A DNA stretch of 38,595 nucleotides from Nitrospirota bacterium (GTDB lineage Bacteria; Nitrospirota; UBA9217), in assembly GCA_021783455.1 (NCBI GenBank), contig JAJXTW010000004.1, positions 1 through 38,595 of the forward strand, in the 5' to 3' direction. The translations under genes were made by a program, and so were the position numbers. Positions 4,090 through 20,956 of this stretch are shown piece after piece. The notes below the pieces were generated by a model. The model searched no databases, was not told the DNA's origin, and worked only from the letters and a program-made list of their open reading frames with translations. The stretch's first letter is position 1; every line of letters starts with the position of its first letter.

Positions 4090-4464
4090 ATGACACCAAG
4101 TACCTACCTTCCGGAGCACTTTCTGCCCGTAGTAGTTTTTCTGCTGCTGGGCACTGCTGTCGGCGTCGGCATGCTGGTCTTCAGCTGGATTCTCCGGCCT
4201 CGGAACCCCTATCCCGAGAAGCTGCTGACCTACGAATCAGGCATCACCCCCTTCATGGACGCACATCAGAAGTTTTCTATCCGGTACTACATCATCGCAA
4301 TGCTGTTCCTCATTTTCGACATCGAAGCCGTGTTCATGTATCCCTGGGCCGTGGCCTTTAACCGCATCGGCATGTACGGGTTTATGGAGATGGTGATTTT
4401 TATCGCCATCCTCGTCGTGGGGTATTTCTACGCGTGGAAGAAGGGGGCCCTTGAATGGGAGTAA
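4090..4464 (+). CDS. nuoA: NADH-quinone oxidoreductase subunit A
   Basis: A 124-residue membrane subunit of complex I with three hydrophobic helices (about 11-34, 65-86, 93-115). The conserved family segment is clear: [16 protein letters not shown], then [23 protein letters not shown] with the acidic FDIE motif. Length is normal for the family. It sits beside NuoH and the quinone site in the enzyme. It opens the operon, 55 bp after a candidate promoter, and overlaps nuoB by 10 bp. Confidence 0.97.
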
Positions 4465-4934
4465 TCCAGAATTTATTCGAAGAAGGGTACATTACGACGA
4501 CCATCGATGGGTTCCTGAACTACTGCCGGTCCAGTTCACTCTGGCCGATGACCTTCGGACTTGCGTGTTGTTCTATCGAAATGATCCAATACTATACCGC
4601 TCCTCAGCATGACTTCGACCGCTTCGGCACCGTGCCGCGACCCTCACCCAGACAATCCGACCTCCTGTTAGTCGCCGGCACGCTTACGAAAAAGATGGCC
4701 CCGGTTGTGCGCCGCGTATACGATCAAATGCCCGAACCGCGTTACGTTATTGCCATGGGCAGCTGCGCAGGCTCCGGGGGCATCTTTAATACCTACAGCG
4801 TTGTACAGGGTGTGGACAACATCGTTCCCGTTGATGTCTACATCCCGGGCTGTCCTCCGAGGCCCGAAGCATTGATGAACGGCATCATAAAGCTTCAGGA
4901 AAAGATCCGAACAGAACACTACATCCGGAAGTAA
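4455..4934 (+). CDS. nuoB: NADH-quinone oxidoreductase subunit B (N2 cluster)
   Basis: A 159-residue peripheral subunit that carries the terminal cluster N2, the electron donor to quinone. The ligands are visible: adjacent C38 and C39 (GLACCSIEM), C104 (MGSCAGSGG) and C133 (IPGCPPRPE). The RPSPRQSD block is also typical. It starts inside the end of nuoA, suggesting coupled translation. It is followed by an 83-bp gap before nuoC. Confidence 0.97.
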
Positions 4935-5017
4935 CAAGTCAAAAAATTGTTCCTACTTCTAAAGCGAGAACCGCGCACCACGAGTGTGTCGTCGGTGCGT
5001 CCAAGAACGAGGTTGTA

Positions 5018-5488
5018 ATGGAACCCTTACAGATCGCCAAGACGATAGAAGAAAAATTTGCCGGCGAGGTACTTGGCACAACGAGTCATGCCGGCCAGGT
5101 CGGCGTTATGCTCAAGAAGGAGAGGATCAAAGACATCTGCCTGTTTCTGCGCGACGAGCCCTCCCTCAAGATGGACCACCTTGCCGACCTCACGGCTGTA
5201 GATTATTCCCAATATCCCGGAGACACCGGGCCCCGCTTCGAAGTCGTCTATAATATGATCTCGACCGTGCACCGCCACCGCATTCGTTTGAAGGTCAGGG
5301 TTCCCGAAGAAGATCCGCGGATAGACACGGTTTCCTCGATCTGGAACACTGCGAACTGGCATGAACGGGAGACCTATGACCTCATGGGGATCAAGTTTGA
5401 AGGCCACCCGGATCTTCGCAGGATCCTGATGCCCGAGGATTGGGAAGGACACCCGCTCAGGAAGGAATATCCGCTGAAAGGCTATTGA
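5018..5488 (+). CDS. nuoC: NADH-quinone oxidoreductase subunit C
   Basis: A 156-residue homologue of the 30-kDa complex I subunit, separate from NuoD rather than fused. The signature is [20 protein letters not shown] at about 111-130, followed by [21 protein letters not shown]. It is a structural subunit without cofactors in the peripheral arm. A GAGG lies about 6 nt before the ATG. A heptad-repeat tract begins 5 bp after its stop codon. Confidence 0.95.
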
Positions 5489-5492
5489 TCGT

Positions 5493-5527: not shown

Positions 5528-5575
5528 TTTTGATCCGGACGTTGGATTTTGACATTTGAAATTCAGGTGAATCAT

Positions 5576-6775
5576 ATGTCCTCGACAGAAACGGCACAAA
5601 AAGAGATCGTCCAAAAAGAAATTACCCTGAACATGGGCCCGCAGCACCCGGCCACCCACGGCGTGCTGCGCCTGGTGCTCGACCTGCAGGGCGAGACCGT
5701 GGTCGGCGTCGATCCCCGTCCCGGCTACCTTCACCGGGGGATCGAGAAGTGGATGGAAAGCCGGACGTACCATCAGATCATCCCCATGACCGACCGGCTG
5801 GAATACATCTCTTGTATGAACAACAACCTCGGCTACGTGGTCGCCGTCGAGAAACTGGCCGGGATTACGGTCCCCGACCGCGCGCAATTCATCAGGACGC
5901 TTACTGCAGAACTCAGCCGGCTCAGCGCACACCTCATCTGGCTCGGCAGCAGCGCAGTGGACATCGGCGCCATGACGGTCATCTTTTATGCGCTTCGCGA
6001 GCGGGAACTGATCCTCGACCTCCTCGAAATGCTGAGCGGTGCGAGGCAGACGCTGAGCTACGTGCGCATCGGCGGAGTACGGAATGATGTCCCGCGCGAT
6101 TTCATCGATAAATGCCGCGAGTTCACCGAGCTGTTCCCTAAGCGGCTCGAAGAATACGATACGCTCATCCGCGAGAACCGGATCTGGCTTAAGCGCACGG
6201 TGGGAATCGGCGTGATGACTGCCGAGGACGCCGTCAATTACGGACTGACGGGAGCCACGCTCAGGGGGTCAGGGGTGAATTACGATCTCCGCAAGGTAGA
6301 GCCTTATGCTGCTTACGATAAAGTGGAATTCGACGTCCCGCTCGGCAAGAACGGCGATGTCTATGACCGATATGTCGTGCGCATCAACGAGATGCGTCAG
6401 AGCAACCGCATCATCAAACAGTGCCTCGACATGATGCAGCCCGGTCCGATTACGACCGACGACGCTCGATACGCCATTCCCGAAAAGATAACGGTTATGA
6501 AGAGCATGCAGGCACTGGCGCACCAGTTCGTGCTCATGAGCAAGTGGGTGCCCATGCCGAAGGGCGAGGTGTACATAGCCACGGAAGGCGCGAAGGGCGA
6601 ACTCGGCTTCTATATCGTAAGCGACGGGAGCGGCAGACCGTACCGCATCAAGATCCGCGCCCCATCGTACGTGAACCTGAGCGCCATCCCGAAGATGGCG
6701 ACGGGGCATATGATGGCTGACGTTGTCGCCTGCATCGGCACGATCGACATCGTGCTTGGCGAATGCGACCGGTAG
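5576..6775 (+). CDS. nuoD: NADH-quinone oxidoreductase subunit D
   Basis: A 399-residue 49-kDa-type subunit, which with NuoB forms the quinone-reduction site. It begins the conserved region with LNMGPQHPATHGVLRLVLDL and contains GYLHRGIEKWME, an LRGSGVNYDLRK segment and the C-terminal SAIPKMATGHMMADVVACIGTIDIVLGE. Like other complex I NuoD proteins it is evolutionarily related to the NiFe-hydrogenase large subunit but lacks the metal-binding cysteines. The ATG at 5576 is chosen because AGGTGA lies 5 nt upstream; an in-frame TTG at 5549 sits in repeat sequence. The signalling cassette follows after 24 bp. Confidence 0.96.
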   Translation: MSSTETAQKEIVQKEITLNMGPQHPATHGVLRLVLDLQGETVVGVDPRPGYLHRGIEKWMESRTYHQIIPMTDRLEYISCMNNNLGYVVAVEKLAGITVPDRAQFIRTLTAELSRLSAHLIWLGSSAVDIGAMTVIFYALRERELILDLLEMLSGARQTLSYVRIGGVRNDVPRDFIDKCREFTELFPKRLEEYDTLIRENRIWLKRTVGIGVMTAEDAVNYGLTGATLRGSGVNYDLRKVEPYAAYDKVEFDVPLGKNGDVYDRYVVRINEMRQSNRIIKQCLDMMQPGPITTDDARYAIPEKITVMKSMQALAHQFVLMSKWVPMPKGEVYIATEGAKGELGFYIVSDGSGRPYRIKIRAPSYVNLSAIPKMATGHMMADVVACIGTIDIVLGECDR

Positions 6776-6799
6776 AAGAGCAGACCTCTGATTGAAACG

Positions 6800-7156
6800 A
6801 TGAAACTGAGAGAGATCATCAACCTGCTTCAAGCCCGGGTTCTTGTCGGTGACGGACTGCTCGACGAGATCGAGGTGGATCGGTGCTTCAGCGCCGACCT
6901 CATGAGCGATGTGCTCGGCCGTACTCACGCAAACGGCATTCTGATTACGGGGCTCACGAACCCTCAGGCGGTAAGGACGGCGGACATTGCCGATATCAAG
7001 GCGGTCTGCGTGGTGCGCGGGAAAGTGCCGGAAACGGACACGGTGGCCTTGGCGAAACAAAAGGACATCCCGCTGTTCACAACCAAACTGACCATGTTTG
7101 AGGCCTGCGGCATTCTTTACCAGAATGGGCTCAAAGGGGTAGCCGAGCGGCAATAG
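6800..7156 (+). CDS. DRTGG-domain protein 1
   Basis: A 118-residue protein made of a single DRTGG-type domain, the module also found N-terminal to HPr kinase and in phosphotransacetylase-like proteins. Visible blocks are FSADLMSDVLGRTHANGILITGL, AVCVVRGKVPETDTVALAKQKDIPLF and a C-terminal MFEACGILYQNGL. There is no kinase domain or P-loop, so it is more likely a ligand- or partner-binding protein than an enzyme. Similar single-domain proteins occur, to my knowledge, beside NAD-linked [FeFe] hydrogenase genes. It opens the five-gene insert between nuoD and nuoE; a paralogue is at 8125. The next gene starts 4 bp after its stop. Confidence 0.85.
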   Translation: MKLREIINLLQARVLVGDGLLDEIEVDRCFSADLMSDVLGRTHANGILITGLTNPQAVRTADIADIKAVCVVRGKVPETDTVALAKQKDIPLFTTKLTMFEACGILYQNGLKGVAERQ

Positions 7157-7160
7157 ACTG

Positions 7161-8114
7161 ATGGCACAGCCGGGCAAAGAGCAGGAGAGGCTGGACCGGG
7201 TGACCAAGACCCAGGAGATGGTCTATGAGATCACCGTGGGTGAGGTCATGGCTACCAAGATGGTCACCGTCGGGCCTGAACAGACCATGTCGGAGCTTCG
7301 GGTTCTCTTGCGGGACAACCGCATCTCGGGTACGCCGGTGGTCGAGAACGGGAAGCTCGTGGGCATGGTCAGCATCGAAGATTTGATCAATGCCCTTTAC
7401 GATAACGCGATCAACGCCCCCATCCGGGAGCGGATGAAAACGAAGGTCGAGTGCCTGTACACCGATGAACTGCTGGTCCATTGCATTGCCAAGTTTTCCA
7501 AACTGGGTTACCGGCGGTACCCGGTATTGGACCGGAACGATGAACTGGTCGGGATCATTACCAAGGGAAGCATCGTCGAAGGCCTGCTGAAGAAGCTCGA
7601 GGTCGAGTACGAACAATCGGAGACGAATGCTGCTTTGGCGCGTCATCGTCCGGAGATGAGGAAGTTCTTTGAAGATGTGTCCGCCGACGAGATCAGCTTT
7701 ACCTTTAAGTACAATGTCGCTGGCCAGACATTGAAAGATGCGGGCAAGGCCGCGAGCGAACTCAAGAACGCGCTCAAAAAACTGGGTGTTTGCCCGCCGC
7801 TCCTCAGAAAGATAGGGGTTGCCACCTATGAAGCCGAGATTAACCTTGCTTCCTATACGAAAGGCGGCGAGATCCGGGCACAGGTAGAGAAGTGGGGGAT
7901 CACCGTGGAAGCCATCGACAGCGGCCCCGGCATCCCCGATATCGAGCGCGCCCTGCAGCCGGGATATTCCACGGCGCCCGACTGGGTCCGCGAATTGGGA
8001 TTCGGCGCAGGCATGGGGCTGGTGAATATAAAAAAGTGCTCCGACGAGATGGACTTGAAATCATCGGTACCCGACGGGACACACCTGACGATGCAGTTCT
8101 ATTACACGAGCTGA
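7161..8114 (+). CDS. CBS-pair plus HATPase signalling protein
   Basis: A 317-residue fusion. Residues about 24-145 form two CBS domains (VGEVMATKMVTVGPEQTMSELR, SGTPVVENGKLVGMVS, then RRYPVLDRNDELVGIITK), which usually bind adenine nucleotides. Residues about 175-315 form a GHKL ATPase of the RsbW/RsbT anti-sigma kind: an N-box-like YEAEINLASY, G1 DSGPGIPD (253-260) and G2 FGAGMGLVNI. No phospho-acceptor histidine domain is present. A plausible role is a serine kinase or switch that reads ATP/AMP or NAD status. Its substrate may be one of the neighbouring proteins; this is inference. Confidence 0.85.
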   Translation: MAQPGKEQERLDRVTKTQEMVYEITVGEVMATKMVTVGPEQTMSELRVLLRDNRISGTPVVENGKLVGMVSIEDLINALYDNAINAPIRERMKTKVECLYTDELLVHCIAKFSKLGYRRYPVLDRNDELVGIITKGSIVEGLLKKLEVEYEQSETNAALARHRPEMRKFFEDVSADEISFTFKYNVAGQTLKDAGKAASELKNALKKLGVCPPLLRKIGVATYEAEINLASYTKGGEIRAQVEKWGITVEAIDSGPGIPDIERALQPGYSTAPDWVRELGFGAGMGLVNIKKCSDEMDLKSSVPDGTHLTMQFYYTS

Positions 8115-8124
8115 CCGGGGGCCA

Positions 8125-8475
8125 ATGAAACTGAAGGACATTGTAAAGGAGTTCAGTCTGGAAGTGAAAGCCGGTTCCGGCAACCTTGATACGGATGTGG
8201 CCGGCGGTTACGTGAGCGACCTTCTGTCCGATGTCCTGGCCCATGCAGAGGACGGGGTGCTTTGGGTCACGCTCCACATCCACCAGAACATCGTAGCCGT
8301 GGCTTCCCACAAGGGACTCTCAGGGATCGTGCTGGTGCAGGGCAGGCAGCCGGAAAAGGACACCATCGCCAAGGCCGAGGAAGAGCACATTCCGATTCTG
8401 GTGTCTGATCTTTCGGCGTACGAACTCGTGGGCAGACTCTATAAGGCAGGTATCCGTGGCGCTGAGGCGCATTAA
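8125..8475 (+). CDS. DRTGG-domain protein 2
   Basis: A 116-residue second single-domain DRTGG protein, paralogous to that at 6800. It shares the blocks YVSDLLSDVLAHAEDG, GIVLVQGRQPEKDTIAKAEE and the ending YELVGRLYKAGIRG. The two copies are divergent, suggesting separate ligands or a heteromeric pair. It starts 10 bp after the CBS-HATPase gene and overlaps the PHP gene by 20 bp, so the genes are tightly coupled in translation. Confidence 0.85.
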   Translation: MKLKDIVKEFSLEVKAGSGNLDTDVAGGYVSDLLSDVLAHAEDGVLWVTLHIHQNIVAVASHKGLSGIVLVQGRQPEKDTIAKAEEEHIPILVSDLSAYELVGRLYKAGIRGAEAH

Positions 8476-9202
8476 GGCTGATCTGCACGTGCACACGTGT
8501 TTGTCCCCCTGCTCCAGTTTGGACATGTCGCCCCGGGAAGTCGTGAGTGCGGCCCTCCGGAAAGGCCTTGATCTGATCGGGGTGTGCGACCATAACTCGG
8601 CAGAAAACGTTCTGGCTGTGAAGAAGGCCGGCAGACGAAACGGGTTGATGGTGCTGGGCGGAATGGAAGTTTCCTCTTCCGAAGAAGCGCATATTCTGAC
8701 GTTCTTTGATGATGACGACGACCTCCTGGATTTTCAGGATTTTATTTACCGGCACCTTGCAGGCAGCAACGATGAACATTCTTTCGGCCTGCAGGTGATT
8801 GCAGACGATGAAGACGGAGTAAGCGGTTTTTGCAACCGGCTTTTGATCGGTGCCACGTCGCTCCCTGCGGAAACAATCGCTGCCAGGGCCCGGCAGGCAA
8901 AAGGCGAAAGCCTCGTGATTGCCGCCCATGTGGACCGGGAATCCTTCAGCATCATCGGACAGCTTGGGTTCATTCCTCCCACGCTGGTTTTGGATGCCGT
9001 GGAAGTATCGGCGCACATGAGCGCAGCCGGGCTGAAGGAGCGGTTCCCTGATTGCAGGAAGTACCCCGTCATAACCGGCTCTGATGCGCACGGCCCCGAG
9101 GATATCGGCAAACGCTTTACCTGGTTCACGTCGGAAGACGGAAGTATAGCTGAGATCAAAAAGGCCCTGAGCGGCAGCGATAACAGGAAGGCGGAGTGTT
9201 GA
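8456..9202 (+). CDS. PHP-domain metal-dependent phosphoesterase
   Basis: A 248-residue protein with a complete PHP metal-site pattern: H11 and H13 (DLHVHTCLSPC), D45-H46 (VCDHNS), E71 (GGMEVSS), H79, H158 (AHVD), and D210 and H212 (GSDAHGP). PHP proteins hydrolyse phosphate esters with two or three metals. It starts with GTG at 8456 inside the preceding DRTGG gene, with AAGG 9 nt upstream. In this cassette it could remove phosphates placed by the two HATPase proteins or degrade a nucleotide signal; neither is shown by the sequence. Confidence 0.88.
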   Translation: MALRRIKADLHVHTCLSPCSSLDMSPREVVSAALRKGLDLIGVCDHNSAENVLAVKKAGRRNGLMVLGGMEVSSSEEAHILTFFDDDDDLLDFQDFIYRHLAGSNDEHSFGLQVIADDEDGVSGFCNRLLIGATSLPAETIAARARQAKGESLVIAAHVDRESFSIIGQLGFIPPTLVLDAVEVSAHMSAAGLKERFPDCRKYPVITGSDAHGPEDIGKRFTWFTSEDGSIAEIKKALSGSDNRKAEC

Positions 9203-9205
9203 GGA

Positions 9206-9742
9206 GTGGAAGATATTTCTCTCCATATCCTCGACATTGCCGAGAACTCGATCCGCGCTGACGCTAAAACGATAGAGATCATCATCGCCAGGGATTTCGA
9301 ACAAGGTCTTCTCCGCATTGAGGTGATTGACGATGGACGGGGAATGGATGCCGCGACGCTGGCCAGGGTCCGGGACCCGTTCTTCACGACGAAACACAAG
9401 AAGACGGGCTTGGGAATCCCGTTCCTCTCTCAGGCGGCAGAATTGACCGGCGGACAGGTAACGGTGGATTCGGGCCCGGGAAAAGGAACACGGGTGACAG
9501 CCACCTTCCATTGGGCTCACGTGGACCGGCCGCCGATCGGGAGCATGGCAGAAACGATCCTCACGCTCATTGCCGGCCACCCGGACAGGGAATATATATA
9601 CGAAGAACGGGCAGGCGACAGGGTCTTCCGGCTCGATACGCGGGAAATAAAAAACGATATCGAGAATGTTCCGATCAACACTCCGGAGGTTCTCGCTGCG
9701 ATCCGAAACATGCTGAAGGAACAGATGAAATTTGAAATGTAA
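9206..9742 (+). CDS. Stand-alone GHKL ATPase (histidine-kinase-like, no DHp)
   Basis: A 178-residue ATPase: N-box DIAENSIRADA (N14), G1 IDDGRGMD (41-47), F box DPFFTTK and G2 TGLGIPFL (67-73). There is no dimerisation/phospho-acceptor domain and no sensor region; a 75-residue tail follows. It therefore resembles an isolated kinase catalytic domain acting on a partner in trans. GTG at 9206 is the likely start, since GGAG lies 9 nt upstream and only 3 bp separate it from the PHP stop. The last codons (MKFEM) lie within a 10-bp inverted repeat, so the tail end is repeat-derived. Confidence 0.85.
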   Translation: MEDISLHILDIAENSIRADAKTIEIIIARDFEQGLLRIEVIDDGRGMDAATLARVRDPFFTTKHKKTGLGIPFLSQAAELTGGQVTVDSGPGKGTRVTATFHWAHVDRPPIGSMAETILTLIAGHPDREYIYEERAGDRVFRLDTREIKNDIENVPINTPEVLAAIRNMLKEQMKFEM

Positions 9743-9752
9743 ATTTCAAATT
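9729..9752. repeat. Inverted repeat spanning the HATPase stop codon
   Basis: AATTTGAAAT (9729-9738) and ATTTCAAATT (9743-9752) are perfect reverse complements with a 4-nt loop containing part of the stop codon. It belongs to the same TTTGAA/TTCAAA sequence class as the heptad tracts. The hairpin would form just before the nuoE ribosome-binding site. Confidence 0.7.
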
Positions 9753-9768
9753 CGTGAAGAGGTAACCC

Positions 9769-10278
9769 ATGAGTAACGAAGCGGTTGCACAACAGACTGC
9801 AACAGACAATGAGGTCATCGGCCCCGAGATGTACCGGAAGATCGATGCAATCATCGAGAAATACAAGGACAAACCCGGGTCGCTCATTCCGGTGCTTCAG
9901 CAGGCGCAGGACGTCTGCGGCTATCTGCCGCACATCGTGCAGCGCTATGTCGCGAAAGGGATGAAGATGTCGCCGAGCGTCGTGTTCGGCGTGGCAACCT
10001 TCTATTCCTTCTTTACTCTCGTGCCGCGCGGCAAGCACGTGATCCGCGTTTGCCTCGGCACGGCCTGCTACGTGAAGCGGAGCGAAGAAATCCTCGAGAA
10101 GATCAAGGATGAACTGGACCTCGAAGTCGGAGAAATCACGCGGGACAAGAAGTATTCCTTGGAAGCCGTGCGGTGCCTGGGCGCCTGCGGTCTGGCGCCG
10201 GTTGTCGTGATCGGGCAGGACACCTACGGCGATGTGGCGGCAACCAAGGTGATGGACATCATTAAGAAATATGAATAG
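9769..10278 (+). CDS. nuoE: NADH-quinone oxidoreductase subunit E / HndA-type 2Fe-2S protein
   Basis: A 169-residue 24-kDa-type thioredoxin-fold subunit. It ligates a [2Fe-2S] cluster (N1a type) with C95 and C100 (RVCLGTAC), and C136 and C140 (RCLGACG). The N-terminal helical part contains the family segment LIPVLQQAQDVCGYLP. It works with NuoF in NADH oxidation. An AGAGG precedes the ATG. It ends at TAG 10276-10278, after which the same frame stays open for 48 codons (see findings). Confidence 0.95.
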   Translation: MSNEAVAQQTATDNEVIGPEMYRKIDAIIEKYKDKPGSLIPVLQQAQDVCGYLPHIVQRYVAKGMKMSPSVVFGVATFYSFFTLVPRGKHVIRVCLGTACYVKRSEEILEKIKDELDLEVGEITRDKKYSLEAVRCLGACGLAPVVVIGQDTYGDVAATKVMDIIKKYE

Positions 10279-10299
10279 CTCCGCAATGCGGTTTCGGAA

Positions 10300-10417: not shown

Positions 10418-10801
10418 ATGGCTAAGCTGACGATAGCAGATTTGAAGAAGATCAAAGAGGAATACCATGCGAACCAGGCGTTGCGCGAGGGAGGGTTCCG
10501 CGTCAAGATCACGGTGCACATGGGCACCTGCGGCATTGCGGCAGGCGCACGCACGATCATGAACACTGTCATGGAAGAACTGGCCAAGTCCGATAAAAAA
10601 GATATCGCGATCACGACATCAGGCTGCGCAGGCCTTTGCAGCCAGGAGCCCATGGCCACCATTGAGCTTGCTGGCGAGCCGCCGGTGAAATATATCGCCC
10701 TCACCGAAGAAAAGATGCGCAGGATTTTCACCGAACACGTGATGAGCGGGAAACCGGTCAAGGAATTTGCACTCGTCCAGGGGCACGAGACGACATATTG
10801 A
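10418..10801 (+). CDS. hndB: HndB-like thioredoxin-fold protein of the NADH module
   Basis: A 127-residue protein matching the HndB family of NADP-reducing [FeFe] hydrogenases: VHMGTCGIAAGARTIMN, then SGCAGLCSQEPMATIEL. Three cysteines are conserved (C38, C70, C74), one fewer than the canonical four-Cys thioredoxin-like ferredoxin, so whether it holds a [2Fe-2S] cluster is uncertain. Ordinary complex I operons do not carry this gene. It sits between nuoE and nuoF exactly as hndB sits between hndA and hndC. That strongly suggests the NADH module came from a hydrogenase-type diaphorase. Confidence 0.85.
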   Translation: MAKLTIADLKKIKEEYHANQALREGGFRVKITVHMGTCGIAAGARTIMNTVMEELAKSDKKDIAITTSGCAGLCSQEPMATIELAGEPPVKYIALTEEKMRRIFTEHVMSGKPVKEFALVQGHETTY

Positions 10802-10855: not shown

Positions 10856-12646
10856 GTGGAGACGACATACCGCTCAAACATAATGATCTGCGCAGGAACA
10901 GGCTGCGTGGCAAACGGATCGCTGAAGGTGAAGGACGCTCTGGAGACCGAGCTCATCAAGCGTAACCTGCAGAAAGAGGTCAAGATCGTTCTGACCGGGT
11001 GCAACGGGTTCTGCGCAAAAGGCCCGGTCATGGTGGTCTATCCCGAGGACATCTTCTATCAGCTGGTGAAGCCCGAAGACGTGCCTCATCTCGTTGAAGA
11101 GCACTTTATCAAGGGCCGCCCGGTCCAGAAGTTCCTGTATACGCCCCCGGCGCAGAAGGATGCGATCCCGGTGATGAACGAGATTCCGTTCTTCAAGCAC
11201 CAGGTGCTCAGGGCGCTCAGGAACCGGAGCCTTATCGACGCCGAAAAGATCGAAGAGTACATTGCCCGTGATGGCTATATGGCCGCTGCCAAGGCGCTCA
11301 CGGAGATGACACCCGAGCAGATCGTGAGCGAAATGAAAAAATCCGGTCTGCGCGGCCGCGGCGGCGCCGGCTTTCTTACCGGTCTCAAGTGGGAACTCTG
11401 CGCCCGCGTTCCGGGCGACATCAAATACATCCTGTGCAACGGCGACGAGGGCGACCCGGGCGCGTTCATGGACCGGAGCGTTATGGAGGCCGATCCCCAC
11501 TCCGTGCTCGAGGGCATGATCATAGCCGCCAAGGCGATTAATGCTCATTACGGATACATTTACGTCCGGGCGGAATACCCCCTCGCGGTGCACCGCCTGC
11601 AACTTGCGATCGAACAGGCCAAGGACCGGGGCCTTTTGGGCAAGGACATCCTCGGCACGGGCTTCGATCTCGATATCGAGATCTATCAAGGCGCGGGGGC
11701 GTTCGTGTGCGGCGAGGAAACGGCGCTTATGGCGTCCATCGAAGGCAAGCGCGGCATGCCGCGGGCCAAGCCGCCGTTCCCGGCAGTCAAGGGTTTGTGG
11801 ATGCGTCCCTCGGTCTTGAACAACGTCGAAACCTTCGCCAACGTCCCGCCGGTCATCCTGCATGGCGCTGATTGGTTCGCGAGCCTCGGCACGGAAAAGA
11901 GCAAGGGTACGAAAGTCTTCGCGCTCTCCGGCGCCCTGAACAACATCGGTTTGGTCGAAGTGCCCATGGGCATCCCGCTCAAGACCATCATCTATGACAT
12001 CGGCGGCGGGGTCAAGAACAACCGGAAGTTCAAGGCGGTACAGATGGGCGGCCCTTCCGGAGGCTGCATCCCGGCTTCGCTCATCGACACGCCGGTCGAC
12101 TACGAGAACATCAACAAGACCGGTGCGATCATGGGCTCGGGCGGCATGGTGGTGATGGACGAGACTACCTGCATGCCGGCCATGGCCAAGTTCTTCCTCG
12201 AATTCACCGAGGATGAGTCGTGCGGCAAGTGTGTTCCCTGCCGCGTCGGAAACAAGACTCTCCTGACCATCCTGCAACGCATCACCAGCGGGGAAGGGCG
12301 GGAGGGAGACATCGAGCTTCTGCTCAATCTTTCACAACAGATCAAGGACACGTCGCTGTGCGGCCTGGGCCAGACGTCGCCCAACCCGGTGCTTACGACG
12401 ATCAAGTATTTCCGGGACGAGTACGAGGCGCATATCAAGGAGCATCGGTGCCCGGCGCGGGTCTGCACGCCCCTTGTCAAATTTGTGGTGGACAAGGACA
12501 AATGCAAGAAATGCGGCCAGTGTTTCAGGGCCTGCCCGACGGGGGCGCTTAAATGGGAAAAAGGACAGGTTGCCTATATCGATCCCGAGAAGTGCACGAA
12601 ATGCAAATCCTGTATCAAGGCATGCCGGTTCTGGTCCATTGATTAA
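10856..12646 (+). CDS. nuoF: NADH-binding subunit F, HydB/HndC type with extra Fe-S domains
   Basis: A 596-residue protein, far longer than standard NuoF (about 430-450). Domains in order: an N-terminal thioredoxin-like [2Fe-2S] domain (C12, C17, C49, C53); the FMN/NADH domain (GRGGAGFLTGLKW at about 167-179, NGDEGDPGAF at 195-204); the N3 [4Fe-4S] site (C456, C459, C462, C502); and a C-terminal two-[4Fe-4S] ferredoxin domain (C550, C553, C556, C560; C580, C583, C586, C590). C532 and C537 could bind another metal. This is the architecture of bifurcating-hydrogenase HydB/HndC. It starts with GTG (10856) after AGAGG. The usual GFPTG is GFLTG here. Confidence 0.95.
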   Translation: METTYRSNIMICAGTGCVANGSLKVKDALETELIKRNLQKEVKIVLTGCNGFCAKGPVMVVYPEDIFYQLVKPEDVPHLVEEHFIKGRPVQKFLYTPPAQKDAIPVMNEIPFFKHQVLRALRNRSLIDAEKIEEYIARDGYMAAAKALTEMTPEQIVSEMKKSGLRGRGGAGFLTGLKWELCARVPGDIKYILCNGDEGDPGAFMDRSVMEADPHSVLEGMIIAAKAINAHYGYIYVRAEYPLAVHRLQLAIEQAKDRGLLGKDILGTGFDLDIEIYQGAGAFVCGEETALMASIEGKRGMPRAKPPFPAVKGLWMRPSVLNNVETFANVPPVILHGADWFASLGTEKSKGTKVFALSGALNNIGLVEVPMGIPLKTIIYDIGGGVKNNRKFKAVQMGGPSGGCIPASLIDTPVDYENINKTGAIMGSGGMVVMDETTCMPAMAKFFLEFTEDESCGKCVPCRVGNKTLLTILQRITSGEGREGDIELLLNLSQQIKDTSLCGLGQTSPNPVLTTIKYFRDEYEAHIKEHRCPARVCTPLVKFVVDKDKCKKCGQCFRACPTGALKWEKGQVAYIDPEKCTKCKSCIKACRFWSID

Positions 12647-12726: not shown

Positions 12727-14901
12727 ATGCCTAATATGACGGTAACAGTAGACGGTAAAAAGATCGAAGTCCCTCTAGGCTCGACCATTCTCGAAGCCTG
12801 CACAGCCGCCGGGTCCCGCGTTCCGACCTTGTGCCACGACAACAAGCTCCATCCTTTCGGCGCATGCAGGATCTGTCTGGTCGAAGTGGAAGGGACCCCG
12901 CGCAAGTTCACGCCTTCCTGCACAACGCCGGCCACGGACAACATGGTGGTGAAGACCACGTCGCCGGGGCTCATCGAGGCGCGGAGGATGGTGCTTGAGC
13001 TCCTCTTGATTAAGCATCCCCTCGACTGCCCGGTATGCGACAAAGCCGGAGAGTGCTCCCTCCAGGACCTCGTGCACGAGTATGGACTCGGCCCGAGCAG
13101 GTTCGACGCTGAAAAAGGGTACTTGCCCCCGGACTATGAGAGCGCGATCATCGAGCGGAATATCAGCCGCTGCATCCTCTGCGGCAAGTGCGTCAGGATC
13201 TGCGACGAGCAGAATGCCGTGGGCGAGTGGGCCTTTACGAGACGCGGAACACGGGCCAGGATCAGCACCGATTTCGACCGGCCCTTGGACTGCGAGTTCT
13301 GCGGCGAATGCGTCGAGATCTGCCCCGTGGGCGCCCTTACCACGCGTCAATTCAAATACAAAGCCCGGTCGTGGAACCTCGAAGGGACCGCGTCGGTCTG
13401 CAACTACTGCGGCTGCGGCTGCGGCGTATCGTACGAAACGCGCGAGGGCAGGATCATGCGCGTCGGCCCTGCGCGCAGCAATTACCTTTGCACCAAGGGA
13501 CGGTTCGGCTGGGACGCCGTCCACCATGCGGAGCGACTCACGACCCCCAAGATGCGTGTGAACGGCGAATTGGTGGATTGCACCTGGGACGAGGCGCTGT
13601 CAATCATTGCGACGAACCTCAAGGTGATCAAGAGCAGGCACGGGGCCGAGAAGATCGGCGGGCTCGGATCGGTCCGGACAACGAACGAAGACAGCTACGT
13701 GTTCCAGAAGTTTTTGCGCACCGTCGTCGAGACCAACAATATCGACACGCTCGCTCGGCTCAAGACGCCCAAGGGCCTGAACACGACCTTCTTTTCCGGA
13801 GAGCTGAATAAGATGGCCTCTCACGAGGTCATCCTCGTTCTCGACAAGAACGTGGGCGAGATCAACCCGCTTACGGGCATCGAGATCGTGCGCGCCGTCA
13901 ACAAGAAAGACCGGAAACTGATCCTCGTAAACGAGGAGTTCAACAAGTTCAACAAGATCGCAACCGTGGTGCTGCCGACAAGCACGGTCAATGCCCTCGA
14001 AGACCTGGTGAAAGCCCTTTCCTCCGGAGCGGGAAGCGAAGAGGCGAAACGTGCGGCGGCAATGCTCAAGGCTGCCAAAAACGTGGCGATCATCGTTCCT
14101 GCACAGCTTTCGAACAATGAGTTTCCCCTGATCAGGGATCTGGCGGGAAAACTCACGGAGGTCACCTACTATCCGCTTGTCCGAAGAAGCAACTTCCAGG
14201 GCTCCCTGGACATGGGAGTGATGCCTTCCTACTATCCCGGTTACCGGAAGATCGATGAGGCGTCGACGGCCGATTTTGCAGGCCTGTGGAATGCGGTCCT
14301 GCCGGAAACAACGGGAATGAACGCCGTGGAAATGATCAAGGCGATCACGCCGGGCAAGCTCGCGGCTCTCTACATCATGGGAGACGATCCTGCGGGGAGT
14401 GATCCCGGCCTGAAAGGGATACTCCAAAAACTCGAATTCCTCGTGGTGCAGGACATTTTCTTGACCGAGACGGCAAAGCTCGCGCACGTTGTGCTCCCGG
14501 CCGCCAGTTCCACGGAAAAGAGCGGGACCTTCACGAACCTCGAACGCAGGCTCCAGCAGGTGAACAAAGCCGAGGAGCCCATCGGGGAATCGCGTCCCGA
14601 CTGGGAGATCATCCAGGACATTGCGAGAAAAATGGGCGGGTCCATGAAGTACGGGTCAACAAGGGACATTCTGGCGGAGATCCGGTCCGTTGTTCCTGCG
14701 TACAAAGATCTCGCCCTTGGCGCCTGCTGGTCGCGGGAAAAGTCTCCGCTTGCGGGTATGGCTGACGATCTGTCGCTCACGTCAGATTCGATCATGAAAC
14801 AGGAAGTGATTACCGCCGAACGGCTGCTTTTCTCGTCAGGGATGACGATTACGCGTTCTCATGAAATCAGAACCATCAGACATTACAAGATCGAAGTGTA
14901 G
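12727..14901 (+). CDS. nuoG: NADH-quinone oxidoreductase subunit G
   Basis: A 724-residue 75-kDa-type subunit. N-terminal [2Fe-2S] ligands are C36, C47, C50 and C65. The His-Cys cluster uses H97, C101, C104 and C110. Two [4Fe-4S] sites are C149-C159 and C189-C199. The bacterial N7-type site is C225, C228, C232 and C255. A molybdopterin-oxidoreductase-like domain follows to the end, but I see no Cys/Sec at the expected metal position, so it is probably structural. The extra ferredoxin pair and N7 resemble formate-dehydrogenase alpha subunits and are usual in NuoG of anaerobes. It carries electrons from NuoF toward NuoI. Confidence 0.95.
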   Translation: MPNMTVTVDGKKIEVPLGSTILEACTAAGSRVPTLCHDNKLHPFGACRICLVEVEGTPRKFTPSCTTPATDNMVVKTTSPGLIEARRMVLELLLIKHPLDCPVCDKAGECSLQDLVHEYGLGPSRFDAEKGYLPPDYESAIIERNISRCILCGKCVRICDEQNAVGEWAFTRRGTRARISTDFDRPLDCEFCGECVEICPVGALTTRQFKYKARSWNLEGTASVCNYCGCGCGVSYETREGRIMRVGPARSNYLCTKGRFGWDAVHHAERLTTPKMRVNGELVDCTWDEALSIIATNLKVIKSRHGAEKIGGLGSVRTTNEDSYVFQKFLRTVVETNNIDTLARLKTPKGLNTTFFSGELNKMASHEVILVLDKNVGEINPLTGIEIVRAVNKKDRKLILVNEEFNKFNKIATVVLPTSTVNALEDLVKALSSGAGSEEAKRAAAMLKAAKNVAIIVPAQLSNNEFPLIRDLAGKLTEVTYYPLVRRSNFQGSLDMGVMPSYYPGYRKIDEASTADFAGLWNAVLPETTGMNAVEMIKAITPGKLAALYIMGDDPAGSDPGLKGILQKLEFLVVQDIFLTETAKLAHVVLPAASSTEKSGTFTNLERRLQQVNKAEEPIGESRPDWEIIQDIARKMGGSMKYGSTRDILAEIRSVVPAYKDLALGACWSREKSPLAGMADDLSLTSDSIMKQEVITAERLLFSSGMTITRSHEIRTIRHYKIEV

Positions 14902-14910
14902 GAGCAGAAC

Positions 14911-15996
14911 ATGCTTGACATGAACCAACTACTTCATTATGTCTTTACGCTCGGCATACCCGTTGCCGTACTGCTGGCCTTCATCCTGGCCAACGCCGTA
15001 TACTTGCAGCTCATGGAGCGCAAGGTGCTGGCCCACATGCAGGGACGGCTGGGGCCGATGCGGACCGGGTGGCATGGGCTTCTTCAGCCCATCGCGGATT
15101 CAGTCAAGTTCCTGATGAAAGAAGACATCATCCCGGCAAAGGCCGATAAATGGGTGTTCAGTCTTGCGCCCTTCATCCTGCTCGTGATGGCCTTCGGCTC
15201 CATGGTCATTATTCCCTACGGCCCGCCCACGGACTTCTTCGGTCTTTTGCCGAAAAAAGTTCCCCTCTGGGTGTCGAACCTCAATGTCGGCATCCTGTTC
15301 GTCCTCGCGTTCTCGAGCGTGGGGACCTACGGCGTGATCATGGCGGGCTGGGCCTCGAACAACAAGTACTCCCTCATGGGCGGTTTCCGCTCCGCTGCCC
15401 AGATGATCAGCTATGAAATCCCGATGGCTTTTTCCATCATTACGGTGGTGTTGATGTCGGGGTCGCTCAATCTGTCCGATATCGTGAACGCCCAGACGGA
15501 CCGGTGGTTTGTCGTGGCGCTGCCGGTCGGACCGGTTGCATTCTTTCTTTACCTCATGTCCGGCATCGCCGAAACGAACCGCGTGCCCTTCGACCTTCCG
15601 GAAGCCGAGAGCGAACTCGTCGCCGGTTACTTTACGGAGTACAGCGGCATCCGCTTTGGCATGTTCTATATGGCGGAGTACATGAACATGATCGTCGTGT
15701 CGTTGCTGGCGAGCATCATGTTTTTGGGCGGCTGGCTGCCGGTGCAGATCCTGCCCCATACGCTCGGCCACATCGCGCCGATCGCGTTCATCAATAAACT
15801 GCTTGCAGCAATTCCGCCGACGATCTGGCTGCTCGGAAAATTGTATTTCTTTATCTTTTTCTACATGTGGCTCCGGGCTACCCTCCCGCGGTACCGGTAT
15901 GACCAGCTCATGTCCATTTCCTGGAAGATTTTGCTGCCCCTGTCGCTCGGGACTTTGCTGGTCGCAGCGGGCATGAAGCAGATGGGATGGCTGTAA
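14911..15996 (+). CDS. nuoH: NADH-quinone oxidoreductase subunit H
   Basis: A 361-residue membrane subunit with about eight to nine helices, bridging the peripheral arm and the proton-pumping arm and forming part of the quinone cavity. Signatures: ERKVLAHMQGRLGPMRTGWHG, the loop AETNRVPFDLPEAESELVAGY with conserved acidic residues, and WLRATLPRYRYDQLM near the end. The ribosome-binding site TAGGAG overlaps the nuoG stop codon, so the two genes are translationally linked. Confidence 0.97.
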   Translation: MLDMNQLLHYVFTLGIPVAVLLAFILANAVYLQLMERKVLAHMQGRLGPMRTGWHGLLQPIADSVKFLMKEDIIPAKADKWVFSLAPFILLVMAFGSMVIIPYGPPTDFFGLLPKKVPLWVSNLNVGILFVLAFSSVGTYGVIMAGWASNNKYSLMGGFRSAAQMISYEIPMAFSIITVVLMSGSLNLSDIVNAQTDRWFVVALPVGPVAFFLYLMSGIAETNRVPFDLPEAESELVAGYFTEYSGIRFGMFYMAEYMNMIVVSLLASIMFLGGWLPVQILPHTLGHIAPIAFINKLLAAIPPTIWLLGKLYFFIFFYMWLRATLPRYRYDQLMSISWKILLPLSLGTLLVAAGMKQMGWL

Positions 15997-16009
15997 AGAG
16001 AGGTTTTCA

Positions 16010-16477
16010 ATGAATAAAGTAAAAAAATTCTTCAAAACGGTATTCCTGATCGAAATTGCACAGGGCATGGCCTTGACGCTCAAGACCATGCTGACACCGG
16101 CGGTTACGCGGCAGTACCCCACGTTCAAGCGTAAACCGATCCCCGGGTCGCGCGGGCTCCACGCCATGCGGCGCGATGAAACGGGAAATGCAGCCTGTAT
16201 CGGGTGCGGATTGTGCGAGGCGGTCTGCCCGTCAAAAGCCATTACCGTGGTAACCTCGGAAGGTCCCGAGCACGAAAAAGTCGTGAACTCCTACGAGCTC
16301 GATCTGCTCCGGTGCGTGTTTTGCGGGTTCTGCATCGACGCCTGCCCCGTATCGGCAATCCTGATGACGCCCGAGTTTGAGCTGGCCTGTTATTCGAGAA
16401 AGGACGCGTTCTATACCAGGAACCGTCTCGTCGAAGTGGGCGATAACTACATGGGCGGGAAGGCGGTAAAAAAATAA
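16010..16477 (+). CDS. nuoI: NADH-quinone oxidoreductase subunit I
   Basis: A 155-residue ferredoxin-like subunit with two [4Fe-4S] clusters (N6a, N6b): C63, C66, C69, C73 (CIGCGLCEAVCP) and C102, C105, C108, C112 (CVFCGFCIDACP). An amphipathic N-terminal region anchors it to the membrane arm. It passes electrons to NuoB. Its TAA overlaps the nuoJ ATG by one base (TAATG). Confidence 0.97.
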   Translation: MNKVKKFFKTVFLIEIAQGMALTLKTMLTPAVTRQYPTFKRKPIPGSRGLHAMRRDETGNAACIGCGLCEAVCPSKAITVVTSEGPEHEKVVNSYELDLLRCVFCGFCIDACPVSAILMTPEFELACYSRKDAFYTRNRLVEVGDNYMGGKAVKK

Positions 16478-16986
16478 TGGTGAACCAGGTCATATTCTTT
16501 TACTTCGCCGTTGTCATTCTGGCGTCGGCAATACTCACGATAACCCAAAAGAACCCCATCCACAGCGTGATGTTCATGCTGCTGCTGTTCTTCCATATCG
16601 CCGGCGTTTTCGTGCTCCTGAACGCGGAATTCCTCGCAGCAGTGCAGCTCATCGTGTACGCGGGCGCGATCCTTATCCTGTATCTCTTCGTGGTCATGCT
16701 TCTGAACGTGGACCGGGAAAGCACCGCGGCGCGCGCCAATCGCTTCTGGCCCTGGATGGCGGGCTTCGGTGCGTTGATCGCGGCCGAGGTGATCCTCCTG
16801 ATTGCGCGCGGGACTTTTCCGTCGGAGGCAGGACAGCAGCCCATGCGGCTTGCCGGAAGCGGCGTCAAAGAGCTGGGAGAACTGCTCTATCAGAAGTATC
16901 TGGTTCCCTTTGAGGTGGCGTCCATCATTCTGCTGGTGGGATTGGTGGGAGCGGTGATGCTGGCGAAGAAGAGGGCAAGCGATTAA
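16477..16986 (+). CDS. nuoJ: NADH-quinone oxidoreductase subunit J
   Basis: A 169-residue hydrophobic subunit with five membrane helices. The recognisable segment is NPIHSVMFMLLLFFHIAGVFVLLNAEFLAAVQLIVYAGAI, with the conserved helix that twists during coupling (VQLIVYAGAILILYLFVVMLLN). The ATG overlaps the nuoI stop. A 69-bp gap before nuoK carries no clear signal apart from the nuoK ribosome-binding site. Confidence 0.95.
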   Translation: MVNQVIFFYFAVVILASAILTITQKNPIHSVMFMLLLFFHIAGVFVLLNAEFLAAVQLIVYAGAILILYLFVVMLLNVDRESTAARANRFWPWMAGFGALIAAEVILLIARGTFPSEAGQQPMRLAGSGVKELGELLYQKYLVPFEVASIILLVGLVGAVMLAKKRASD

Positions 16987-17055
16987 AGTATGCTGTTTCT
17001 CGCTTAGAATTCGGAGTTCACGGCAGCGATTCGTAATATTCGGAATGGAGGTTGT

Positions 17056-17358
17056 ATGATTCCCTTGTCCTGGTATATCATCCTGAGCGCAGCTCTGTTC
17101 ACGATCGGCATCGTTGGTGTGCTTTCACGACGCAACATCTTCATTATCCTGATGTCCATGGAGCTCATGCTGAACGCGGCGAACATCAACCTTGTCGCTT
17201 TTTCTCATTACTCGCAGACGCTTACCGGCCAGATCTTCGTGATGTTCGTTATCACGGTGGCTGCTGCCGAGGCGGCGGTGGCGCTCGCGATTATTATCCT
17301 CCTTTCGCGAAACCGCGGAAGCATCTATGTGGATGAGTTCAATATCATGAAGGGCTGA
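17056..17358 (+). CDS. nuoK: NADH-quinone oxidoreductase subunit K
   Basis: A 100-residue three-helix subunit. The two membrane glutamates of the proton path are present, E36 (LMSMELMLNAANINLVAF) and E72 (VAAAEAAVALAI). This matches E. coli NuoK numbering, so the protein is intact. GGAGG precedes the ATG. It belongs to the antiporter-like part of the membrane arm. Confidence 0.97.
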   Translation: MIPLSWYIILSAALFTIGIVGVLSRRNIFIILMSMELMLNAANINLVAFSHYSQTLTGQIFVMFVITVAAAEAAVALAIIILLSRNRGSIYVDEFNIMKG

Positions 17359-17416
17359 AGCCCGGCTTGATCCTTTTTTTGAAGAATTTTTATTATTGGA
17401 GACCGAGGTGCACGAC

Positions 17417-19345
17417 ATGCTCACATACGCACTTATACCGCTTTTGCCGTTTATCGCCTTTCTGATCGCGGGACTGCTCGGGAAATTCCTGAAGGAAAAG
17501 GCGGCCTACGTTTCCATTGCCGGCGTGGTCGGGGCATTTGTCCTTTCCGTCATGGCCTTTTTCGACGTGCTCGACGGCGCCAAGCTGAACGAGAATTTTT
17601 ACTCCTGGATCTCGGTCGGCACCTTCTCCGTAAACGTCGGCTTCCAGATTGACCAGCTCACCGTGGTCATGCTCCTTGTCGTGACGACGCTCAGTTCGCT
17701 CATTCATATCTATTCCGTGGGCTACATGCACGGCGACAAGGGATACCCCCGGTTTTTTTCGTACCTGTCACTCTTCACCTTCTTCATGCTTGTTTTGGTG
17801 ATGGCGAATAACTTCCTGGTCATGTTCGTGGGATGGGAAGGCGTGGGCCTGTGCTCCTACCTCTTGATCGGGTTCTGGTATGAAAAGAAATCCGCAGCCG
17901 ACGCGGGGGTCAAAGCCTTCGTCGTGAACCGTGTGGGCGACTTCGGGTTCGTACTCGGTGTGCTGCTCATTTTCCTCACCTGCGGCACCCTTGACTTTTC
18001 CGAAGTTTTTGCAACGATGGGCACGTCGGTCACGGACGTGACCTATCATCTCTTTGGCGGCGACATCAGCGTGGTTACGCTGATCTCACTCCTCTTGTTC
18101 CTGGGCGCAACCGGCAAGTCCGCACAGCTTCCGCTCTATGTCTGGCTGCCCGACGCCATGGAAGGCCCGACGCCGGTCAGCGCGTTGATCCACGCGGCGA
18201 CCATGGTGACTGCGGGCGTGTTCATGGTGGCGCGCTGCGCACCGATCTTCTCGCTCTCCGAGACCGCGATGAACACCGTGGCGATCGTCGGCGGCCTGAC
18301 GGCGGTCTTTGCCGCGACCATCGGCCTCGTCCAGAACGACATCAAGCGCGTGATAGCCTACTCCACCATCAGCCAACTGGGGTACATGTTCCTTGCTCTC
18401 GGCGTGGGAGCGTTCTCCGCAGGCATCTTCCATCTTATGACGCATGCATTTTTCAAGGGGCTCCTGTTCCTCGCCTCGGGCAGCGTGATTCATGCCCTCT
18501 CGGGAGAACAGGACATGCGCAAAATGGGAGCTCTCAAACCCAAGATAAAGACTACCTGGGCGGTATTTTTTATCGGAGCCCTGGCATTGTCTGGGATCCC
18601 GCCATTCGCCGGGTTTTTCAGCAAGGATGAAATTCTGTGGAATGTGTATAACGCACAGGGTGTCGGTCTTTTTCTTTGGTTCCTCGGCATCCTGGGTGCC
18701 TTCATGACGGCATTTTATTCATTCCGCTTGATCTACCTCACTTTCTACGGCAAGTCGCATCTTGATCCTAAGGTCGAACATCATGTCCATGAGTCACCAA
18801 AGATCATGACGATACCACTCATGATACTGGCTTTTTTCGCAATTACTATTGGATTTATCGGTATGCCCATTGTGAAAGGTGGCAATCTCTTTGCGGAATT
18901 TTTAGCACCGATTTTTCCGCACGTCGAATCCGTTGCGGAATCAGGAAGCCACACACCCGAAATTTTGCTGATGATATTATCGGTGCTTGTTGCCGCCGCT
19001 GGTTGGCGGCTGGCGAATGGCTGGTACAAGAATGCTACGGCCTGGCCGGACAAATTTGCCGATAAATTTAAGGGTATCTATAACCTGCTTTTGAATAAGT
19101 ACAAGGTTGACGAGATTTATAATTATATCTTTGTCGACGGTCTGGTCCACAAACTCGCTAAGGTTCTGTACACCATCGGGGATGTGAAGATCGTGGACGG
19201 CGCGGTGAACGGGATCGCCCAACTTATCGGCGGAGCGAGCCAAAGCGGGAAAAAGATGCAATCCGGGTATGTGCAGCAGTATGCCTTTACTATGGGGCTC
19301 GGCCTCGTGGTTCTGGTGGGGCTGTATTATATAATGATAAATTAA
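17417..19345 (+). CDS. nuoL: NADH-quinone oxidoreductase subunit L
   Basis: A 642-residue antiporter-like proton-pumping subunit with many membrane helices and the long lateral helix at its C-terminal end. Key motifs are E141 in GWEGVGLCSYLL, the lysine-containing GKSAQLPLYVWLPDAMEGPTPVSALIHAATMV, and YSTISQLGYMFLALG. Length is normal. The ATG at 17417 is chosen because GAGGTG lies 6 nt upstream; an earlier TTG is in frame but lacks such a site. A heptad tract begins at the last base after the stop. Confidence 0.96.
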   Translation: MLTYALIPLLPFIAFLIAGLLGKFLKEKAAYVSIAGVVGAFVLSVMAFFDVLDGAKLNENFYSWISVGTFSVNVGFQIDQLTVVMLLVVTTLSSLIHIYSVGYMHGDKGYPRFFSYLSLFTFFMLVLVMANNFLVMFVGWEGVGLCSYLLIGFWYEKKSAADAGVKAFVVNRVGDFGFVLGVLLIFLTCGTLDFSEVFATMGTSVTDVTYHLFGGDISVVTLISLLLFLGATGKSAQLPLYVWLPDAMEGPTPVSALIHAATMVTAGVFMVARCAPIFSLSETAMNTVAIVGGLTAVFAATIGLVQNDIKRVIAYSTISQLGYMFLALGVGAFSAGIFHLMTHAFFKGLLFLASGSVIHALSGEQDMRKMGALKPKIKTTWAVFFIGALALSGIPPFAGFFSKDEILWNVYNAQGVGLFLWFLGILGAFMTAFYSFRLIYLTFYGKSHLDPKVEHHVHESPKIMTIPLMILAFFAITIGFIGMPIVKGGNLFAEFLAPIFPHVESVAESGSHTPEILLMILSVLVAAAGWRLANGWYKNATAWPDKFADKFKGIYNLLLNKYKVDEIYNYIFVDGLVHKLAKVLYTIGDVKIVDGAVNGIAQLIGGASQSGKKMQSGYVQQYAFTMGLGLVVLVGLYYIMIN

Positions 19346-19385
19346 AAGTTCAAAGCTCAGAACTCTGTTCCCTGAACTCTGAACC
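19346..19385. repeat. Heptad repeat tract between nuoL and nuoM
   Basis: In strict 7-bp register: AAGTTCA, AAGCTCA, GAACTCT, GTTCCCT, GAACTCT, then GAACC. The first units are approximate reverse complements of the last, so a hairpin is possible. It begins immediately after the nuoL TAA and ends just before the nuoM ribosome-binding site. Confidence 0.75.
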
Positions 19386-19402
19386 AACGAGGAGCCTTAT
19401 CC

Positions 19403-20941: not shown

Positions 20942-20956
20942 CAGTAAGGAGAACTC

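Follow-up and report, generated by a model that had tools for sequence, protein, structure and literature searches.

In a bacterium of the phylum Nitrospirota, the operon encoding respiratory complex I is interrupted between nuoD and nuoE by five genes, which encode two small DRTGG-like proteins, an ATPase fused to a pair of CBS domains, a PHP-domain phosphoesterase and a stand-alone HATPase. The stretch of DNA analyzed here (the window) comprises 38,595 nucleotides, positions 1 to 38,595 of contig JAJXTW010000004.1 (assembly GCA_021783455.1). We tentatively propose, with somewhat less than even confidence, that the five genes form a partner-switch-like regulatory cassette for ferredoxin/NAD-coupled oxidoreductases built on a HydB-HydC (BfuBC) core, which would here act on complex I, a few copies of the cassette serving Rnf instead.

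Gene content of the interrupted operon

The window (contig G000:C301) belongs to a metagenome-assembled genome of 2.8 Mb that is 89% complete. It contains a complete nuoA-N operon (4090-22411), whose 14 nuo genes form one cluster, and the nuoD/nuoE interval holds five plus-strand open reading frames (ORFs; 6800-9742) in the order DRTGG1, CBS-HATPase, DRTGG2, PHP and HATPase. From nuoD through the five genes to nuoE, the intergenic gaps measure 24, 4, 10, -20, 3 and 26 bp. An earlier, sequence-only reading of this DNA had named the same five genes between nuoD and nuoE, and Pfam and the ORFs confirm them at the same coordinates:

4090..5488, plus strand: nuoA, nuoB and nuoC
5549..6775, plus strand: nuoD, complex I 49 kDa subunit (TIGR01962, 557.6 bits), left border of the insertion
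6800..7156, plus strand: DRTGG1, stand-alone DRTGG-like domain (PF07085, 25.2 bits, at the cut-off)
7161..8114, plus strand: 2xCBS-HATPase (Pfam CBS 88.4 bits, HATPase_c_2 36.9 bits)
8125..8475, plus strand: DRTGG2, second stand-alone DRTGG-like domain (PF07085, 24.1 bits, E 3e-5; cut-off 25.2)
8456..9202, plus strand: PHP-domain metal-dependent phosphoesterase (PF02811 and PF13263; PHP 34.6 bits)
9206..9742, plus strand: stand-alone GHKL ATPase, or HATPase (PF02518, HATPase_c, 64.6 bits)
9769..10278, plus strand: nuoE, HydC/HndA/HoxE type (BfuC; HoxE model NF005747, 169.7 bits)
10418..10801, plus strand: HndB/HydD-like 15 kDa protein, thioredoxin-like
10856..12646, plus strand: nuoF, HydB/HndC (BfuB) type
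12727..14901, plus strand: nuoG, BfuA-equivalent (TIGR01973, 449.3 bits), first shared complex I subunit past the insertion
14911..22411, plus strand: nuoH, I, J, K, L, M and N, the membrane arm plus nuoI

The backing from Pfam is good for the CBS, HATPase and PHP domains, and both DRTGG proteins lie at or slightly under the curated cut-off. The [FeFe]-hydrogenase domain PF02906 was found neither in the window nor in the whole 89%-complete assembly (a Thermotoga control was positive), and the earlier remark that the window lacks a hydrogenase gene thus holds on this wider scale too. Internal promoters and terminators around the insertion showed no excess over shuffled sequences, and an Rfam search gave no match.

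The NADH module is of the bifurcating type

The window's NuoF carries an N-terminal 2Fe-2S domain, an FMN/NADH core and a C-terminal 2x[4Fe-4S] domain, as in HydB/HndC, and its best match in the PDB is the HydB of a bifurcating NiFe hydrogenase (7t2r, 853 bits, versus 391 bits for canonical Nqo1, 2fug). NuoE finds its best NCBIfam match in HoxE of the bidirectional hydrogenase, which scores above the NuoE models, yet under the HoxE cut-off. With a BfuB-type NuoF, a BfuC-type NuoE and a full 14-gene nuo cluster, the operon qualifies as Nuo-Bfu, a complex I with HydB-type NuoF already predicted by Schut et al. (2022; PMC9304861), who place one such clade (BfuB clade 39) in Planctomycetes and Nitrospirae; the odd complex I of the window is therefore known as a prediction. 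The window shares with Nuo-Bfu the fourteen nuo genes and the replacement of canonical NuoEF by HydB/HydC-type subunits, but differs by its five regulator genes, which that paper does not discuss (the words kinase, DRTGG and PHP do not occur in its main text). We predict an enzyme that would oxidize ferredoxin together with NADH ("confurcating"), with quinone as the acceptor.

Distribution and enzyme partners of the cassette

Searching with a profile of the PHP protein (alignment A1) at a threshold of 1e-60, which may miss divergent cassettes, we found close relatives in 68 of 296 Nitrospirota genomes, 6 of 246 in the Planctomycetota sample, 85 of 249 in the phylum containing the Clostridia and 37 of 147 in the WOR-3 phylum, nearly always as a single copy per genome. 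Sixty cassette loci from these four phyla were fetched and annotated, and in 51 of them the PHP gene has a HydB-type gene no more than 10 kb away, against a chance expectation of ∼2%, given about four NuoF-like genes per 3 Mb. The nine others comprise two with hydB slightly beyond 10 kb, three at contig ends, two beside Rnf and two that are partnerless. The Rnf-adjacent cassettes (L126 and L140, with RnfC at 541 and 578 bits) are from Bacillota, and one carries a HydS-like gene, the other CBS domains.

The enzyme partner differs among loci: true group A6 [FeFe] HydA in two (L045 and L124), a formate dehydrogenase in one (L137), HdrA-like proteins in Planctomycetota and WOR-3, a NuoG-like protein without membrane arm in other Nitrospirota, and complex I. 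Hence it is the ferredoxin/NAD diaphorase, rather than hydrogenase, that the cassette accompanies. The statement that similar genes accompany NAD-linked [FeFe] hydrogenases is borne out by the two HydA loci and by an annotated Halanaerobium operon (PMC4237134), but the label "hydrogenase-type" initially given to the cassette proves too narrow, as it also lies beside HydBC with other partners and beside Rnf. Two partner assignments were rejected, namely HydA in Planctomycetota, our first reading of a protein that is HdrA-like, and an active formate dehydrogenase for the 820-840 amino acid (aa) partner in other Nitrospirota, which scores under the TIGR01591 cut-off and shows no Cys/Sec at the expected site. 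At several loci of those other Nitrospirota (L072, L073, L079, L107-L109), this NuoG-like protein accompanies a soluble HydC-HndB-HydB set, often divergent from a full nuo operon, and in two WOR-3 loci HydBC is partnered by a GltD-like protein or by a short Fer2 protein with a glutamate-synthase-like protein after it (L150:10839-13796, L151:15181-18028). CBS-free cassettes occur in two further nuo operons, in the interval between a NuoG-like gene and nuoH (L110) or between nuoD and canonical nuoE (L122).

The window's genome also has a second HydB-type locus (L091, G000:C134, 3622-6306), where an in-frame TGA falls precisely on the active-site position of formate dehydrogenase (DHCARY-TGA-HSSTVAGL) and splits the alpha subunit; the same TGA split is seen in L137. 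This second locus probably encodes a selenocysteine formate dehydrogenase with a bifurcating-type core.

Exchangeable sensors and conserved active sites

The sensor of the cassette is exchangeable. Among 78 loci, 25 have CBS domains on the RsbW-like ATPase, 28 have within the cassette a HydS-like gene, that is, a sensory [FeFe]-hydrogenase-like protein (Fe_hyd_lg_C plus FeS), 25 have neither and none has both. We saw CBS-type cassettes beside complex I, HdrA-like partners and Rnf, and none beside [FeFe] HydA. In CBS-DRTGG pyrophosphatases, CBS domains bind AMP, ADP, ATP and diadenosine polyphosphates (PMC11172384).

The ATP site of the CBS-HATPase is intact (E224xxxN228, D253xGPGI, GxGxG, G306-T307; alignment A3). 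The nearest NCBIfam model and PDB structures for its ATPase part are those of SpoIIAB, and the nearest relatives of its CBS part are AMPK gamma and other CBS proteins; in the AlphaFold2 model the domains are confident, but the predicted TM score (pTM) is 0.46. The protein thus looks like an adenylate-sensor-like CBS pair, for which adenylate binding is predicted, fused to a SpoIIAB/RsbW-like ATPase, itself a predicted GHKL serine kinase. An Asp-x-x-Ser and a Thr are invariant in both DRTGG families, the full sets of invariant residues being Asp33, Ser36, Thr50, Lys75 and Gly104 in DRTGG1 (71 homologues) and Asp32, Ser35, Trp47, Thr49 and Asn55 in DRTGG2 (75 homologues). DRTGG2 had no significant match in the PDB; DRTGG1 is a putative ligand-binding or phospho-accepting partner. 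The PHP protein keeps its metal ligands (H11, H13, D45, H46, E71, H158, D210 and H212), and the full set is invariant or nearly so across 80 homologues.

The stand-alone HATPase is modeled with high confidence (pLDDT, the predicted local distance difference test, 90; pTM 0.86; see also alignment A2), and Foldseek finds its model to resemble the ATPase domains of histidine kinases and of MutL/GyrB. No DHp/HisKA phospho-acceptor domain was found in this protein (9206-9742), where only HATPase_c matched. The two potential ATP-dependent kinases of the earlier reading are thus an overstatement: one ATPase resembles the serine kinase SpoIIAB/RsbW and the other, of the GHKL type, lacks a phospho-acceptor domain. 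Its C-terminal domain has a conserved His105/Asp107; this His-x-Asp (residues 105-107) lies directly past the ATPase domain, is kept in 97-100% of 76 homologues, and is possibly a phospho-acceptor or metal site. In four Planctomycetota loci the PHP protein and the HATPase form a single fused ORF, which suggests that the two act together.

The catalytic residues of the PHP protein and of both ATPases are retained across 76-80 homologues, and all five cassette genes are under purifying selection, with ratios of nonsynonymous to synonymous substitution rates (dN/dS) of 0.04-0.25 that overlap the range of the nuo genes.

HndB accompanies the cassette

The five-gene block as originally delimited missed the HndB-like gene (10418-10801), whose product is the subunit that accompanies the cassette and is part of the same block. 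Counted by locus, the cassette and HndB occur together in 69 cases, the cassette alone in 3, HndB alone in 4 and neither in 21, the exceptions being due to second copies of hydB, to a cassette that lies between hndB and hydB, or to one located elsewhere in the same genome. Counted by genome, HndB is present in 68/68 Nitrospirota with the cassette versus 10/228 without, and in 83/85 Bacillota with the cassette versus 27/164 others (HndB E<=1e-30); the large Fisher values obtained for this association are not independent evidence, because the HydB tree holds only three independent changes of cassette/HndB state. Nine of these ten Nitrospirota genomes with HndB but without cassette (G112, G123, G169, G181, G200, G216, G253, G273, G279) have an HndB-like domain inside a HydB-length frame of 636-706 aa, which by domain content and frame length is a natural HndB-HydB fusion. 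HndB of the window type keeps only three invariant Cys; HndB has been reported to be without redox centre (PMC10084766), and likewise HydD of A. woodii (PMC6288185).

For the converse comparison we took 20 HydB-type loci (L166-L185) picked as not being the cassette copy. Three of them (L166-L168) are, judged by gene content, full HydB-type complex I operons of Nitrospirota without cassette and without HndB; Nuo-Bfu as defined by Schut et al. (2022) also includes Geobacter. A HydB-type NuoF therefore does not require the cassette.

Probable insertion into the nuo operon and apparent mosaic ancestry

We compared 14 genomes of the family (G000-G013, G000 being that of the window). Four (G004, G007, G008, G011) have nuoABCD followed by canonical nuoE, nuoF and nuoG, and lack the cassette. 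One (G003) keeps canonical nuoE and nuoF and has in addition the cassette with hydC-hndB-hydB inserted before nuoG. In eight (G000, G001, G002, G005, G006, G009, G010, G012), the cassette and hyd genes replace nuoEF; the contig of G001 stops inside hndB, where HydB is consequently not seen, and this nuo operon was not found in G013. The cassette state differs even between two members of one genus (G010 and G004). Since the cassette-free, both-state and replaced operons can be read in order, it looks as if the cassette arrived in the nuo operon together with hydC, hndB and hydB, most members losing the old nuoE and nuoF afterwards, a direction that we infer. This history comes from comparison, the reaction of the enzyme excepted.

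The order of the five genes inside the nuo operon is identical in all nine cassette-bearing genomes, which together with the dN/dS values argues against a chance arrangement; random positions in related genomes, named beforehand as what would refute the idea of a cassette, are not what we see. A survey of nuo operons had been suggested as well: within the family, a HydB-type NuoF follows the cassette in 8/8 readable operons and an ordinary NuoF is found in 4/4 cassette-free ones. The proposed tie to an HndC-type nuoF thus stands for the cassette operons of the family, but a HydB-type NuoF is not sufficient for it (L166-L168).

In trees, HydB of the window's family stands as sister to that of other Nitrospirota (SH-aLRT 99, a Shimodaira-Hasegawa-like likelihood ratio support), and grouping it with the CBS-cassette loci is rejected (log-likelihood difference 94, approximately unbiased test p-AU 0.0046). 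The family's regulators (five proteins concatenated, the CBS region left out) instead join the CBS-type cassettes of WOR-3 and Planctomycetota (98), and their grouping with other Nitrospirota is rejected (log-likelihood difference 74.5, p-AU 0.0008); these p-AU values are somewhat optimistic, because the groups were named after the trees had been seen and the searches were short. The cassette and hydB of the window appear to have different ancestries, the block being a mosaic.

Other features were noted around these operons. In G003, a stand-alone cyclic-nucleotide-binding-domain protein lies between nuoD and canonical nuoE (L080:14849-15394), an unassigned ORF of similar length occupies the equivalent site in G004 and G005, and similar proteins adjoin HydB loci of the formate dehydrogenase type (L177-L179, L181); it is possibly another sensor at the NADH module. 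G005 has tandem nuo operons (L081, G005:C9), the first ending in canonical nuoEFG and the next having the cassette and HydB-type NuoF. Past the nuo operon of the window, the ORF of a ribonucleotide reductase large chain (23381-25126) is only 581 aa long and may be short, split or frame-shifted.

Proposed mechanism and alternatives

The retained residues, the purifying selection, the SpoIIAB-like ATPase and the PHP-HATPase fusion together lead us to a control resembling a partner switch. The SpoIIAB/RsbW-like ATPase would be a serine kinase gated by its fused CBS domains, which would read AMP/ADP/ATP (or diadenosine polyphosphates, ApnA). It would phosphorylate the small DRTGG proteins, with Ser36 of DRTGG1 and Ser35 of DRTGG2 as candidate sites, and the PHP protein, possibly complexed with the GHKL ATPase, would remove the phosphate. 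One state of the DRTGG proteins might then dock on the NADH/ferredoxin module through HndB and throttle or re-route electron flow. Where the cassette belongs to a hydrogenase cluster, the CBS input would be replaced by the sensory [FeFe]-hydrogenase-like protein. While the anatomy of the cassette is observed, its signal, phosphotransfer and target are inferred, and "a complete switch" was too strong a term. What survives of the sequence-only reading is the embedding in the nuo operon, the conservation and the link to an HndC-type nuoF; hydrogenase specificity does not, and the two kinases and the complete switch were put too strongly.

Several points weigh against this proposal. Near two of the surveyed cassettes (L133, L156) there is neither HydB nor Rnf, and the three independent changes on the HydB tree, though all concordant, are too few for significance. 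None of the five matched a STAS, PP2C phosphatase or sigma factor family in Pfam. The DRTGG proteins as substrates are a guess from their invariant Ser, for which ligand binding is an equally good reading. HydD and HisK, the probable HndB and HATPase homologues of A. mobile, are absent from the purified enzyme (PMC8880783, PMC9304861), so that stable docking is not general.

The five proteins could instead serve maturation or assembly, with the GHKL ATPase, the PHP protein and the DRTGG proteins building or loading the BfuBC-HndB unit (flavin, Fe-S clusters, subunit docking) without any signalling. Tight coupling to hydB and hndB irrespective of the catalytic partner would fit, as would the resemblance of the HATPase to MutL/GyrB, and the authors of the A. 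mobile study assume a part in maturation and/or regulation for HydD, HydP and HisK (PMC8880783). Yet many BfuBC enzymes, even complex I of the same phylum, do without the cassette (L166-L185), assembly leaves the interchangeable CBS or HydS-like inputs unexplained, and the cassette is divergently transcribed in some Clostridia (L045, L128, L135); we consider this alternative less likely than a partner switch, though a serious one. We give marginally less credence still to transcriptional control, in which the SpoIIAB/RsbW-like protein, homologous to the anti-sigma F kinase, would set operon expression by working like an anti-sigma factor or a comparable switch; this too is a serious alternative. 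Control of hydrogenase expression has been ascribed to HydS-type proteins (PMC10055695, PMC10084766). In other Nitrospirota, many cassettes have histidine kinase and response-regulator genes at their flanks, and L122 has a sigma-54 type regulator. However, no sigma factor or DNA-binding domain was found among the five, and the cassette travels with subunit genes and HndB, not with a promoter or regulator. That the genes are mere passengers, remnants of a hydrogenase operon that came in with hydBC and have no function in complex I, is very improbable. An origin from another kind of operon is likely, and in other lineages HydB-type complex I exists without the cassette, judged by gene content, but the catalytic residues are intact, dN/dS is low and all nine genomes retain the cassette. 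Its ancestry moreover differs from that of hydB, which speaks against a simple joint transfer from a single source.

Our literature searches found the cassette as a unit mentioned only at the level of annotation. NAD-linked [FeFe]-hydrogenase operons have the same kinds of genes, as annotated in Halanaerobium (Halsa_1862-1871: HydA, HydB, ferredoxin-like, histidine kinase, HydC, PHP, iron-sulfur proteins, anti-sigma kinase, unknown ORF; PMC4237134), whereas the window has no hydrogenase, and its kinase bears CBS domains in place of a separate sensory [FeFe]-hydrogenase-like protein. In A. mobile, HydD, HydP and HisK belong to the operon of a bifurcating NiFe hydrogenase, HydD and HisK being probable HndB-like and HATPase-like neighbours of HydABC (PMC8880783), but no full five-gene set is described and the enzyme is a hydrogenase. 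The SpoIIAB/RsbW partner switch offers a GHKL serine-kinase-like fold with its ATP motifs, small single-domain partners and a candidate phosphatase; in the window, DRTGG stands for STAS and PHP for PP2C, and none of the five is a sigma factor. Family II pyrophosphatases combine a CBS pair with DRTGG, and adenylate sensing is known in them, but in the window the domains sit on separate proteins, and the CBS pair is fused with a kinase-like ATPase instead of a pyrophosphatase.

In many anaerobes the balance between ferredoxin and NADH is set by bifurcating enzymes, and to our knowledge how they are switched is hardly known. A gene set so far described only as an orphan neighbour of hydrogenases is seen here to go with a diaphorase core, HndB and interchangeable sensors. 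It is conceivable, though we hold it to be doubtful, that it represents an undescribed class of signalling, a phosphorylation-based partner switch for ferredoxin/NAD-coupled enzymes (any Bfu, or Rnf) in which CBS domains, for adenylate charge, and HydS-type proteins, for H2/redox, would be interchangeable sensors and HndB the docking subunit, and which would have taken over complex I in one Nitrospirota lineage. These observations yield directly testable predictions on the control of bifurcating enzymes and on the purpose of HndB/HydD, and they point to a respiratory complex I that putatively brings along signalling genes dedicated to it.

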